From the IMG/VR virus record IMGVR_UViG_3300030450_003412, positions 1 through 33,022 of that record: a stretch of 33,022 nucleotides of DNA; one strand, given 5' to 3'. Below, one piece after another: positions 28 to 8,538 of the stretch. A program made the translations under genes and the position numbers. The notes beneath the pieces were generated by a model that saw only the letters and a list, made by a program, of their open reading frames with translations, ran no database searches and was not told the DNA's origin. How positions within the stretch are numbered: the stretch's first letter is position 1; each line of letters opens with the position of its first letter. The DNA comes from a virus.

Positions 28-438
28 TCAGGCCTCTGGCCCTTTCCCCGTAATCACCACCCGAATCTCCCCATCCGGCCTGACGATCTCGTCTCGTTTC
101 AGGAATGGATGTGTCCGGAAGTGGCAGTCATCGATCTTCAGTGCGTCCGCCAGCCCATCACGGCCAGACTTGAAAGCTGCAATAATGTTGTCGTCGTCCC
201 GGGCCCGCCGATTGGGCGGATGGAAGTCCAGGAACACATGAATCTCACCGCCGGCCTCGACCAGCTCCCGCAGGGGCGTCAGATCCCACTTGCCCGCCTG
301 GATGGTCTCCAGCGAAATCATCTTGCAGGTGTACCGGTACACTTCCGCAGCGCGGGCTTTCTTGGCCCAGTGCCCTCTGGAGTTCGGGCTTAGGGCCTTG
401 TGCGGCCAGGGAAGTATGATTTCGAGTTTCTCTGGCAT
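28..438 (-). CDS. rusA: RusA-like Holliday junction resolvase
   Basis: A 136-residue protein of the RusA family, which cuts Holliday junctions symmetrically and resolves branched phage DNA during recombination or before packaging. The family signature is clear: an N-terminal PHKALSPN..HWAKKA stretch and the acidic metal-binding motif RRARDDDNIIAAFK (about residues 77-90), whose Asp residues and Lys correspond to the catalytic Asp/Asp/Lys of RusA. Length is close to the usual 120-140. The ATG at 438 follows a GGAG six bases upstream. The gene starts inside the 3' end of the upstream 66-aa gene (49-nt overlap), so translation is probably coupled. It is the last gene of the minus-strand early transcript; if the window ends join, the small terminase gene comes next. 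Confidence 0.88.
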   Translation of the reverse strand: MPEKLEIILPWPHKALSPNSRGHWAKKARAAEVYRYTCKMISLETIQAGKWDLTPLRELVEAGGEIHVFLDFHPPNRRARDDDNIIAAFKSGRDGLADALKIDDCHFRTHPFLKRDEIVRPDGEIRVVITGKGPEA

Positions 439-610: not shown

Positions 611-687
611 TGGTAGCAGGCGAGGGAGTCGAACCCTCCGATATCCGGGTTATGAGCCCAGCGAGACACCGTTTCTCCATGCCTGCA
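611..687 (-). tRNA. tRNA-Met(CAT) with initiator-like features
   Basis: A 77-nt cloverleaf with encoded CCA (611-613). The acceptor TGCAGGC (687-681) pairs with GCCTGCT (621-615) except for a U-U mismatch at position 1-72. The D stem is GAGA/TCTC with A11-U24. The anticodon stem is CTGGG/CCCGG around CTCATAA (anticodon CAT). The T arm is GAGGG-TTCGACT-CCCTC. The mispaired 1-72, A11-U24 and three consecutive G-C pairs under the anticodon loop are the hallmarks of bacterial initiator tRNA. Three bases instead of two join acceptor and D stems, so the fold is slightly irregular. It lies directly 3' of the large structured RNA and was probably cut from the same transcript. Confidence 0.85.
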
Positions 688-689
688 TA

Positions 690-1425
690 GCTGGCGGGTT
701 ATCCGGTACCACCGCCGTATGCCTTTTGAAGGGAGGCTACCCAGACCCCCTACCGGTAGGAGCCACAAGTTCGCAATGTCATTGCGGTTGATGCGTCGGC
801 CGGGAACCTCCCAACCCCTTACACATCTGTGGAATGCCCTCGCTTGGCGGACCCGCTTTCAACGGCAAGGACACTCCCAGATGCGTCCCGGTTACCCTCG
901 TCCGGGGACACGTCAACCACCTACCAACGGTGATACTTTTGTGCCGGGTGCCCTGGGCACCATCCCCAGGGTGGAGCCGTGGCGCCGGTGGCTCGACGCA
1001 CGACGTTCTATGGCCCTACATTCCTGCCGCAGCTCACACGGGCAGTTCAGATTCCGCCGAAGCGGGCGGGCTCTCTCGGGCGGTATCCGTATCCGAGGAG
1101 GGCTCTACCTGACTCGCAGGCCTGGGGAGACCTACCAAGTCACCTTGGTCATGGGAGCAGAGCCCTCCCGGATACGGCCTGCCTTTCCAGGCTGTCAGCG
1201 CGATCAACTGGGGCGGTGGTGGGTTACCTTTGCCTCGCGCTGCTGGCGTTCTATCGCCGGGACCCTGTCCCCGGCTGCAATGTCGGCACCTTGGCTTTCG
1301 CCTGGCCAGCTTTACCGGCTGCTTCTGATAGCGCTGCAGCTCGCGCTCGCATCAAACCCTGTACAGATATCCACCCGTAGTCAGACGGGTATTCCGCCGG
1401 CTTGCGAGTGGTTTAATGGAAACCA
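690..1425 (-). ncRNA. Large ornate structured RNA (GOLLD/ROOL-like by context)
   Basis: About 740 bases without a credible gene but dense in helices. Verified stems (plus coordinates): 1373-1378/1385-1390; 1256-1263/1267-1275; 1087-1106/1159-1177 (19 bp, one bulge); 1134-1139/1144-1149; 1054-1057/1062-1065; 1024-1028/1041-1045; 974-978/990-994; 951-957/965-971; 885-891/902-909; 824-833/875-883; 772-777/781-786; 731-736/807-812; 693-697/712-716. Read on the minus strand, loops are GUGA (1140-1143), C(UUCG)G (1058-1061) and an alternative GGAA, all standard tetraloops; on the plus strand they are not, which fixes the strand. Known giant phage RNAs such as GOLLD are of similar size and often sit beside tRNAs. 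The exact ends and the family are not established. Confidence 0.75.
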
Positions 1426-1671
1426 TCAGGCGGCCTCTCCAGATCGTTCCGCCGGCAACCCGTCAGTAGGATTCGGGTAGATGTCCGGGCGGAGCTCGTG
1501 AGGAGTGACCTGCCAGTCAGACCCTTCACAAATGGACAGCGCTCGCTTCGGCGAAATGGGGCGGATCCCATGAACCATTTGGTAAAGGTATGCAGGGGCC
1601 ACACCGATATGCTTTGCGAAATCGGAGCGGCCGCCCGGAGGCAATTGATTTAGGAAAGTTGAGAGTTTCAT
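1426..1671 (-). CDS. Cro-like / YdaS-type HTH regulator (81 aa)
   Basis: A small DNA-binding protein, MKLSTFLNQLPPGGRSDFAKHIGV..., with a helix-turn-helix at about residues 13-35 (RSDFAKHIGVAPAYLYQMVHG) followed by ISPKRALSICEGSDW, the pattern of YdaS/Cro-type regulators. It is transcribed divergently from the repressor across the operator region, as cro is from cI in lambda, so it is presumably the lytic-phase repressor of the immunity promoter. The ATG at 1671 is preferred over an upstream in-frame start because the upstream one would place promoter and operators inside the gene. It is the first gene of the transcript that continues into the large RNA, tRNA and rusA. A small hairpin (1409-1414/1420-1425) abuts the stop codon. 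Confidence 0.8.
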   Translation of the reverse strand: MKLSTFLNQLPPGGRSDFAKHIGVAPAYLYQMVHGIRPISPKRALSICEGSDWQVTPHELRPDIYPNPTDGLPAERSGEAA

Positions 1672-2162: not shown

Positions 2163-2912
2163 ATGCAGCCTATTGGGTTTGCGACCCTGTATACCGAGCC
2201 ACGCCGTCTTGAAGGGCTGGATAATGTCTCAGAGGTATGGGTTGCCGACGCCCTCACACACGAGGGTGACCTGCGCCTGTACGTCAAGAAAACCACCAAA
2301 GAGGAGATCCTGGCGGAATGTCTGGCGTCCCTGCTGGCGGCAGAGCTGGGATTGCCAGTCAGCAGAGCTTTTATAGTTCAGGATCCGGGCGATCTGCTTG
2401 GCGGCGGTTATTTCGCGGGAAGTGAGGACGCAGGCGCACCTTCCATCAAACAGTGGCTGAATCGCCACGACCCCGTTGTCGTCCAAATGCTTTCCAACTG
2501 GGACAAACTGCATGAAGTAGCGTTATTCGACGAGTGGATAGCCAACCCGGACAGGCATGGTGGCAATCTATTGTGGGGCGGGGAGGATAACTGGGTGCTG
2601 ATTGATCACGCCCTATCCCTCTGGTCGACACTCAGGAAGCCAGACGCAGATCTACCATGCGAGAATATCCTGGCTGGCTGCATCAGAGAATGGGAGGGCG
2701 ATTTAGGCCCGGCGAGAATGCACAGAAATAGCGGCCCGTTCGCGGCCAGGTGCAGGCAGATAGATCCGGAAGAGATCCAAATTGCCTCTCAAAGTGAACA
2801 TATTGGAATGTATGAGCGGTGCCGGGATACGCTATCATCATTGGAAAAGCGACTTTCCAAGATGCCGGCATTGCTTGCCAGGCACGGTAACCAACTGGGT
2901 CTTCTACCATGA
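2163..2912 (+). CDS. HipA-like protein kinase (249 aa)
   Basis: Related to the HipA-like kinase family. The key elements are visible: a nucleotide-binding Lys pair in RLYVKK (about 42-43), a helix with Glu in EILAECLASLLAAELGLPV (about 48-66), the catalytic loop NPDRHGGN (128-135) and the metal-binding segment WVLIDH (144-149). It lacks the large N-terminal lobe of classical HipA (about 440 residues) and resembles the short 'HipA family kinase' proteins of about 250 residues. HipA itself phosphorylates a tRNA synthetase and is held by the HTH partner HipB; here an HTH protein gene also sits directly upstream, but that one looks like the phage repressor. It overlaps the next gene by 4 nt (ATGA). 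Expression from the immunity promoter implies activity in lysogens. The target is unknown. Confidence 0.72.
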   Translation: MQPIGFATLYTEPRRLEGLDNVSEVWVADALTHEGDLRLYVKKTTKEEILAECLASLLAAELGLPVSRAFIVQDPGDLLGGGYFAGSEDAGAPSIKQWLNRHDPVVVQMLSNWDKLHEVALFDEWIANPDRHGGNLLWGGEDNWVLIDHALSLWSTLRKPDADLPCENILAGCIREWEGDLGPARMHRNSGPFAARCRQIDPEEIQIASQSEHIGMYERCRDTLSSLEKRLSKMPALLARHGNQLGLLP

Positions 2913-3781
2913 CTGCCAAAAGCTCTCCATTTCCAGAGCTACCACAATACAAGGCCGAAGGTATGGCCGTATTCATGGAGCCTATAGCTGGCTCCGTAGA
3001 ACGATTGTGCGTGGCAGTGGCAGCGCAAGGAGTAGATCGCGCCTATCAGGTCGTTCCGGTTATACGCGAATCCACAGCCAAGTGTATGCTAGGCCATGCG
3101 GGGCCGGGCTTTCTGGAGATGGTTAACCTGGTTATTAATAGCCTGACCTGCCATCTGGAAACCGGAGCGCCAATGAAGACATGGCGGCCTCCGATGACTG
3201 GAGTTTATCCCGGCGAAGCTAGGCCCGGGCAGGTTGAAGACCTGACCATGATGCTTCGCACAACGGCAAGGAATAGCGCCTTTCTCAGCCGGATGGCAGA
3301 CTTTACCGCCGATGACGATGTCGAGGTTACGGTTTCCGATCGCTGGCTGACCCAGGTGAAAGAGGCCATGGCGGAAGAGCACCCAGAGCTGGTGCGTAAC
3401 TTCAGCAGGAAGTTGCAGCTGTACACCGGTGGATCCCCCACGACCTTCGACTACGTGGGCGGCAACTACGTGGCCCAGCTTTCGCGGATTGTGCCAGGCA
3501 ATGGTCTGTCCACATACAATCGAATCGCCAAGTCAAAAATGTGGGAGCTCATCTCTCTGAGAGACAAGGGGCATACCGGGCTGTTCCAGGTCGAGAACTT
3601 CGAGCTGATCCTGTATCGGCCGGGCAAGAACGATCCCAGCTTCAGCGAAAGCGACATCAATCGAGTTTACGAAGTATTTCATGAGCTCGAGGAAGAAGCT
3701 GATCAGCAGGAGCTGCGAGTGCACGGAGTGCAAAGCCCGGAAGGTGCGGTGCGGCACATCCTCAATGGCGAAGCGGCCTGA
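2909..3781 (+). CDS. Unknown protein translationally coupled to the kinase (290 aa)
   Basis: I do not recognise this protein. It is soluble in character, with no signal peptide or membrane segment, and mixed alpha/beta: an N-terminal stretch with EPIAGSVERLCVAVAAQG (about 24-41), a middle part around TARNSAFLSRMADF, a conserved-looking YTGGSPTTFDYVGGNYVAQLSRI segment, and an acidic C-terminal helix (ELEEEADQQELRVHGV). Its start overlaps the kinase stop (ATGA), so the two are almost certainly made together. Short HipA-like kinases are often paired with a DUF3037 protein; the ERLCVAVA stretch might be a distant relative of that domain, but this is only a guess. Its presence in the lysogenic operon suggests a role in lysogeny control or in exclusion of other phages. 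Confidence 0.7.
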   Translation: MTAKSSPFPELPQYKAEGMAVFMEPIAGSVERLCVAVAAQGVDRAYQVVPVIRESTAKCMLGHAGPGFLEMVNLVINSLTCHLETGAPMKTWRPPMTGVYPGEARPGQVEDLTMMLRTTARNSAFLSRMADFTADDDVEVTVSDRWLTQVKEAMAEEHPELVRNFSRKLQLYTGGSPTTFDYVGGNYVAQLSRIVPGNGLSTYNRIAKSKMWELISLRDKGHTGLFQVENFELILYRPGKNDPSFSESDINRVYEVFHELEEEADQQELRVHGVQSPEGAVRHILNGEAA

Positions 3782-4701: not shown

Positions 4702-4944
4702 ATGGACGGGGTGGCTCCGGAGCCGTTCGCAGTGGCTGCCGCCGCGATCGCGATCTGGGTGCTGGCCCTGATTATCGAAACGACCAAAGCAAGAGGAAAA
4801 AAGGATGTTGATTCTGACAAGGCGCACCGGAGAGACGATCGTCATCGAGACCCCGAGCGGGGAAGTGGTGGAGGTCACCGTTCTGGGGAACAACGGCCCG
4901 CAAATTCGCATGGGCGTTACCGCGCCAAAGCACACAAGCATTGA
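4702..4944 (+). CDS. Possible small single-pass membrane protein (up to 80 aa)
   Basis: The first 30 residues contain one clear membrane helix ([16 protein letters not shown], about 10-25) followed by basic residues. A GTG at 4696 overlaps the previous stop; the ATG at 4702 is the alternative start. The second half overlaps csrA in another frame for about 140 nt and is low in complexity ([15 protein letters not shown]), so only the membrane part is convincing. It may be a small membrane peptide whose tail is incidental, or not a gene at all. Confidence 0.4.
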
Positions 4945-4993
4945 CCGTGAAGAAATCTACAAGCGGAAGAAGGCGGAGGCCAGTCATGGCTGA
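4805..4993 (+). CDS. csrA: CsrA/RsmA-family RNA-binding regulator
   Basis: A 62-residue CsrA homologue beginning [15 protein letters not shown] and ending ...[21 protein letters not shown], which matches the host family nearly throughout. CsrA dimers bind GGA motifs in mRNA leaders and block or stabilise translation. The RNA-contacting elements are present: the N-terminal MLILTRR strand and the Arg of DREEIYKR (equivalent to R44). A few extra residues (TPSGEVVE) lengthen the loop after the first strands compared with E. coli CsrA. The start follows AAGAGGAAAAAAGG. It overlaps the next gene by 8 nt. A phage-borne copy may redirect host carbon and motility regulation or control phage mRNAs. Confidence 0.93.
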
Positions 4994-8229: not shown

Positions 8230-8538
8230 ATGGCCATGACAGCAACAGAGCGAAAGCGCCGCCAGCGTGAAAGGGAAAAGCACCTGGACATCAAGCCCTT
8301 CACGATGCAGTTGGCTGCCAACGAGAGAGCAGCGATCGAAGAGGCGGCAAACCTCCGAGAGTTCGAAGATCAGACTGAGTACATCCTCGCGCTGGTTTAT
8401 AAGGATCGTGACATGTCACGAAAAGAAAATGTGTGTAGCTATCCCGAATGCCGGTGCCCGTTTGATATGGGACCAGATGGTAAATGCCTGGCTGGGAAGC
8501 CGAGAGCGGAGGAGGTCGACAATGGCGCTGCCATATGA
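8230..8538 (+). CDS. Small phage protein with basic N-terminus (102 aa)
   Basis: Begins MAMTATERKRRQREREKHLDIKPFTMQL, then a helical AANERAAIEEAANLREFEDQTEYILALVYKDRD. This resembles small ribbon-helix-helix-like phage proteins (TERKRRQRERE...KPFTxxL), so DNA binding is plausible. A second part has four Cys (CSYPECRCPFDMGPDGKC), a possible zinc site. ATG at 8230 or 8236 are both possible. The palindromic site at 8406-8421 lies inside this gene. Confidence 0.6.
   Translation: MAMTATERKRRQREREKHLDIKPFTMQLAANERAAIEEAANLREFEDQTEYILALVYKDRDMSRKENVCSYPECRCPFDMGPDGKCLAGKPRAEEVDNGAAI
8406..8421. promoter_or_regulatory. 16-bp perfect palindrome, copy 2
   Basis: TCGTGACATGTCACGA shares the exact 14-bp core CGTGACATGTCACG with the palindrome at 474-491. 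Here the core encodes RDMSR, in the other copy NVTCHV, so the identity is not due to shared protein sequence. Confidence 0.4.

Follow-up and report, generated by a model that had tools for sequence, protein, structure and literature searches.

Our comparative analysis shows that a structured RNA family is conserved in the early operon of phages, on the strand of that operon, with a core of four helices (P7-P8-P9-P10) and an optional 5' part (P1-P6). We found it at positions 690-1425, on the minus strand, of a 33,022-base virus record of the temperate siphophage kind (the window, by which we mean this whole stretch of DNA). Since its structure is conserved and covaries, and since it is absent from Rfam, we regard this RNA, which lies beside a tRNA, as a new class. 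This was one of two proposals made in the initial annotation; the other, a divergent member of the GOLLD or ROOL families, gained nothing from the Rfam covariance models, which gave no match to them.

Place of the RNA in the early operon

The host of the window phage is almost certainly Marinobacter, because loci near-identical to that of the window are present in a complete genome of the M. algicola genus (L120, genome G007) and in M. nauticus, M. bryozoorum and M. algicola records. The cro/CI region occupies 1426-2158, the integrase gene lies at about 9.7-11 kb, and the tail, head and terminase genes run rightwards to the window's end. The early operon, on the minus strand, begins with a cro-type gene of the YdaS family (1426-1671, ATG at 1671, stop at 1428-1426; Pfam PF15943, 2.4e-10), upstream of which a promoter scan found a promoter-like TTGACG-17-TACATT (1707-1679, minus strand), the predicted PR. 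After the cro stop, the order of elements is a 70-nt leader, unit A (P1-P8), unit B (in some members), P9, P10, an optional tRNA, a palindrome and the Holliday junction resolvase gene rusA (28-438, minus strand; PHROG 34, 1.8e-16), just past which the operon is truncated at the window's left edge. Elsewhere in the window, a HipA-like kinase gene lies behind the repressor (2163-2912, plus strand; Pfam PF20613), and the phage encodes a CsrA-like protein (4805-4993, plus strand; Pfam PF02599, 3.7e-18). The idea that the RNA could be a sponge for CsrA, raised by this csrA-like gene, was dropped for lack of conservation of GGA in the P7 loop.

The RNA had been described initially as standing in place of replication genes, which proved wrong. 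Downstream of rusA in L004, L108 and other relatives there is an Ant/Rha-type regulator and then an O-like replication initiator (PHROG 9773, 1.3e-62); therefore, the RNA is not a stand-in for replication genes, and the window merely stops after rusA. Judged by gene order, it is the place of cII that the RNA occupies, because related phages whose cro is of the YdaS type have a CII-like gene following it (L035; PHROG 163, 1.5e-38). We infer from the protein family and the isolate-genome origin that these are Pseudomonas phages; their cII/YdaT-type gene fills the same slot behind cro, a protein gene there as against an RNA here.

The tRNA lies directly downstream of the RNA, as first reported (611-687, minus strand; ARAGORN; Rfam 39.1 bits). 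It is an initiator-type tRNA-Met(CAU), optional in the family, with no 1-72 pair (U1:U72) and with the GGG/CCC anticodon stem, as in the host initiator tRNAs (L151-L154), while the host elongator tRNA-Met (L155) differs from it. Such an initiator-type neighbour is unusual in itself. Some members also have tRNA-like sequences within the RNA: there are two in the P9 region of L108 (about 2930-3200), the first an initiator-like one with CAU whose anticodon arm is shortened (Rfam 36.7 bits), and the second with a long insert; L011 has an insert at the apex of P8 (2379-2505; Rfam 29.7 bits, just over the family cut-off); and the P9 loop of L119 contains a weak acceptor/T-arm-like element (about 1735-1870).

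On its downstream side, the RNA module is bordered by a perfect 14-bp palindrome, CGTGACATGTCACG (476-489), just upstream of rusA. Virtually all relatives have it at this place, and longer records contain another copy several kb away (8407-8420 in the window); it looks like the operator of a phage regulator. Additionally, the 3' ends of L122 and L028 have in common a terminator-like hairpin with a weak T run (CCCGG..CTCTGCCA..GGTACGCC..GGGTTATC).

Structure, distribution and covariation of the family

When folded, the minus strand of 690-1425 reaches -342.8 kcal/mol, with a z of -4.08 (20 shuffles), compared with a z of -2.81 for the plus strand; among 86 stretches of its length (736 bases) taken from both strands, it has the lowest z of all (-5.07, against a window mean of -0.88). 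Together with the covariation found in homologues, which also confirms the strand, this bears out the earlier proposal that the minus strand encodes a structured RNA.

All helices of the window RNA are on this strand. The start of unit A (1331-1358), including the P1 hairpin (1331-1346), is defined by sequence conservation only, and compensatory changes accumulate from there on: one pair changed on both sides in the P2 hairpin (1305-1319; GCCGGU/GCUGGC, 95% of cells paired), two in P3 (1293-1302; GGC-GAAA-GCC), three in P4 (1256-1275; CCGGG/CCCGG, in others GGUGG/CCACC), four in P6 (1197-1241; 1235-1241 with 1197-1203) and 5/5 in the P7 hairpin (1177-1192). P8 of unit A (1089-1175; model R2, 36.1 bits) is the 19-bp stem with one bulge that had been placed at 1087-1106/1159-1177; it is present two bases off, with 1157-1175 pairing with 1089-1108. 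The 3' end of this P8 is GGAUAC rather than GAUGC, and no P9 comes after it.

The diverged second unit, unit B (822-1088; model R2, 127 bits), is like the lone unit of L123 and has its own P7 (887-907) and its own P8 of 20 bp (865-884 with 822-843), as well as the C(UUCG)G hairpin that had also been recognized from the start (1054-1069). The tandem units share one P9 (790-827; 821-827 with 790-796), whose inner two pairs covary (93% paired), and one P10 hairpin (772-786; CGCAAU-GAC-AUUGCG; four pairs changed on both sides, 72% paired). Model R2 detects both P8 units of the window, at 127 bits and 34-36 bits. A direct comparison of the sequences of units A and B gave no significant similarity, and the relationship that we propose between them is drawn via L123 (z of 13.1 for unit B and 4.5 for unit A), the shared P8 and model R2.

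Family members were gathered by RusA and Cro protein searches among viral contigs, by DNA-pattern scans and by two covariance models, R1 for P2-P7 and R2 for P8-P10. This gave about 30 distinct members, nearly all of them carried by Marinobacter prophages or phage contigs. Scores of R1 range from 33 to 185 bits across 24 members. This model identified nine true carriers among 124 Marinobacter genomes, to which R2 adds a tenth (G112) and a second M. nauticus locus. Strains that have the locus include M. algicola DG893 and M. nauticus DSM 50418. Four R1 matches (L124-L127, 25-29 bits), lying inside coding genes that resemble surA, proA and cbiD, were due to chance and were removed; L111, from a Clostridia MAG, was also a chance pattern match. 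Beyond the genus, we sampled 391 genomes from the order and 369 from the class; the sole results were one chance match and a 2.1-Mb genome, G827, whose RNA copy resembles that of L009. No similar DNA was present in the phage collection, and a literature search for a described noncoding RNA of Marinobacter prophages found nothing relevant. One member, L112 (NZGD01000110.1), is a contig from a 'Rhodopirellula' MAG that represents a Marinobacter-type phage, probably mis-binned.

In every member with both flanks visible, the RNA is encoded on the strand of the early operon, with the cro-type gene on one side and rusA or a replication gene on the other. One of these is L123, from a phage that differs in its Cro and has an O-like replication gene; there too the RNA lies behind cro. 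The length varies: most members have 300-400 nt, some about 130 nt and the window type about 740 nt. Unit B exists only in the window, L004, L002, L007 and L120, and the minimal members (L012, L159 and L160) lack P1-P6 and consist of the segment that follows the cro stop and P7/P8-P10; the P7-P10 core can occur by itself, at about 130 nt. Thus, the initial term 'giant' suits the two-unit members of the window type, with about 740 bases, but not the family, whose core has about 130 nt. P9-P10 are missing from L014 and L016, and P7-P10 from L028. Many members have small genes, some antisense, inserted between the leader and unit A or after P10; such small-gene cassettes at the borders of the RNA module, exchangeable and often with an antisense gene, were seen in L011, L014, L016, L027, L041, L112, L119, L012, L032, L033 and L028.

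The covariation across these homologues stands above both shuffled and slid controls. Because the structure guided the alignments and the members are relatives of one another, double-change counts do not represent independent events; with this reading, the R1-based alignment (24 members, P2-P7) has 96.8% of cells paired and 15 of its 26 pairs changed on both sides, with 59 double-change cells, and the R2-based alignment (23 distinct rows, P8-P10) has 18 of 24 pairs changed on both sides, with 75 such cells, counts that 0/500 shuffles equalled in either case. Sliding the R1-based alignment made the signal collapse. Among the modelled P8 pairs, 12/12 covary, and when the P8 arms were paired by hand they formed 12-20 bp in 22/22 members examined, with compensatory changes at 10/15 positions.

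These changes also bear on whether the region is, or was, a gene whose structure is incidental, which we consider highly improbable. A sense frame (..ARAAALSEAAGKAGQAEDRRGADIAAGDRVPAIERQQ..) is open over much of unit A in L010, L113, L119, L121, L008, L112, L120 and L002, and the window has long antisense frames (253 aa), as a coding region might. However, the sense frame is broken in the window and in L004, L005, L007, L009, L011, L013-L015, L027, L041 and L122, and it gave no match in Pfam, PHROG or tblastn; the antisense frames are interrupted by stops in several members, and the compensatory pair changes alter codons. No sense frame stays open across homologues, in agreement with the first impression that no credible protein is encoded here.

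A cmscan of positions 440-1500 against all 4227 families of Rfam 15 (lax filters, E ≤ 10) returned no RNA match except the tRNA, and at E ≤ 1 nine related loci gave no match to GOLLD, ROOL or any other Rfam family apart from tRNA. Therefore, membership in GOLLD or ROOL, for which the argument comes down to size and tRNA neighbourhood, is unsupported, and we give a divergent member almost no chance. The two families are nonetheless the closest in kind. GOLLD (RF01998) is also an RNA of phages and prophages, with an adjoining, sometimes internal, tRNA; it has a conserved 3' part, a variable 5' region, and tRNAs near it or in the linker (PMC12286853). The Marinobacter RNA resembles it, in kind only, in that its 3' P8-P10 is kept most widely, P1-P6 being dispensable, and in its association with tRNAs (611-687, and the inserts of L108 and L011). 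In contrast, it has about 130-740 nt, whereas many GOLLD members are over 800 nt, it has no covariance-model similarity to GOLLD, it lies behind cro in the early operon and its P8 and P9 compete. GOLLD is also characterized by a homo-oligomeric RNA nanocage. ROOL is also a large structured phage RNA found near tRNAs, likewise without covariance-model similarity to ours. The Marinobacter RNA may work like them.

Competing P8 and P9 helices and the leader behind cro

The outer 3' strand of P8 (b, GAUGC) pairs with its 5' partner (a, GUAUC) and doubles as the 5' strand of P9, where it pairs with a third strand (c, GCAUC); the two helices, a:b and b:c, are mutually exclusive. The strand common to P9 and the outer P8 of unit B reads GAUGU in the window. 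Members with P9 have a mostly Watson-Crick b:c helix and often a G-U at the second pair of a:b, and the competing pairing is retained wherever P9 exists. P8 helices that are not followed by P9 (unit A of the B-containing lineage, L016 and L014) have AUAC or AUUC in b, not AUGC, a contrast between three independent cases without P9 and about twenty with it. It would seem that b is kept for c, because it reads AUG where P9 follows and AUAC or AUUC where it does not, and this pattern is suggestive of a strand constrained to pair with both a and c. Alternatively, separate molecules, or the partners of a dimer, could each use one of the two helices.

The 70-nt leader (1359-1428, minus strand; leader profile 3.5e-19 and alignment) lies directly behind cro, has the cro stop as its first bases and aligns without gaps in nearly all of the members compared. 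Its sequence can adopt two hairpins, and it begins about 245 nt past the predicted PR start. The leader also reads as a 24-codon mini-ORF, MVSIKPL..NTRLTTGGYLYRV, ending GGYLYRV, with a TGATG overlap with the cro stop and conserved as MVSIKP..GGYLYR; its differences by codon position are 1681:1285:1482, and its pN/pS is 0.69, the other frames having values of 0.63 and 0.88. Thus, the leader is either a two-hairpin RNA element or a coupled mini-ORF.

As an RNA element, it would recall the putR site of phage HK022, which has about 70 nt and two stem-loops and lies about 270 nt downstream of PR (PMC9378689). Size, place downstream of PR, two-hairpin potential and gapless conservation could all be explained if the leader were the functional element, acting like put, whose RNA-only antitermination goes through the zinc-binding domain of RNAP beta', with the remainder a passenger cassette. 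We find this unlikely: the leader profile has no match in HK022 (24000-40751), RNAalifold gave no convincing consensus fold, the gapless length fits a coupled 24-codon ORF equally well, and the covariation of P2-P10 would be left unexplained. A blastn search with the leader gave no phage match either. Unlike put, this leader may code and is accompanied by the main RNA, an additional and much larger structure.

Possible functions of the RNA

The reading that we prefer, with rather less than even confidence, is that the RNA is a cis-acting switch of the early transcript in a CII-type slot. Its transcription would start at PR, and it would belong to the early message and act in cis while being transcribed, helix a:b forming first. 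The emerging strand c would then let b:c displace a, taking the RNA through two states, one of which may favour read-through of the polymerase into the early genes downstream, or affect them in another way. A cut by RNase P at the initiator-type tRNA might set the 3' end of the RNA. Several observations are consistent with this switch: the covariation and the P8 pairing of all 22 members examined, the difference in b between P8 helices with and without a following P9, the constant strand and place behind cro even beside the different Cro of L123, the parts retained in the minimal members, the CII-like gene in the same place in related phages and a minus strand on which a consensus scan of the RNA region found neither a terminator nor an own promoter. 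Other observations argue against it. Genes are inserted at the module borders and the distance to the downstream genes varies, unlike in most cis switches; the synteny seen within a single phage lineage is due in part to common descent; the leader, as a candidate read-through element, has no match to put and may be a mini-ORF; and L014 and L016 do without P9-P10.

Nearly as likely, although still doubtful, is an ornate RNA that acts in trans as GOLLD or ROOL may do. Released by RNase P at the tRNA, it would form a large particle or RNP and act on ribosomes, tRNAs or host factors. This would suit a large, GC-rich RNA with many helices, optional expansions and a tandem second unit, as well as the adjacent initiator-type tRNA, the tRNA-like inserts in peripheral loops of L108, L011 and perhaps L119, and the wide retention of the 3' P8-P10, which parallels the conserved 3' part of GOLLD (PMC12286853). 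It is less easily reconciled with a core that shrinks to about 130 nt, with the constant location inside the early operon and with the lack of Rfam similarity. The early operon, the position upstream of the O-like gene and the strong secondary structure would also be expected of a replication element (a primer RNA or an origin) or a packaging-related RNA. We consider this very unlikely, as we found no direct support for it, the minimal forms retain only P7-P10, and the frequent G-U pairs point to single-stranded RNA, not DNA, as the functional form.

It is also tempting to speculate, with some reserve, that the strand exchange between the outer P8 and P9 is an early-operon switch in the CII slot, and that some phages have enlarged it by tandem duplication and tRNA-like additions into an ornate RNA.

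To our knowledge, there are few large structured phage RNAs, and their functions are mostly unknown. In sequenced Marinobacter genomes, members of this family span about 130 to about 740 nt, so that its smallest working unit can be found experimentally, and the conserved competing helices provide a concrete prediction that can be mutated. Finally, given its place behind cro, in the slot where related phages have a CII-like gene, a regulatory position of the lysis-lysogeny region may be filled by an RNA in these phages.
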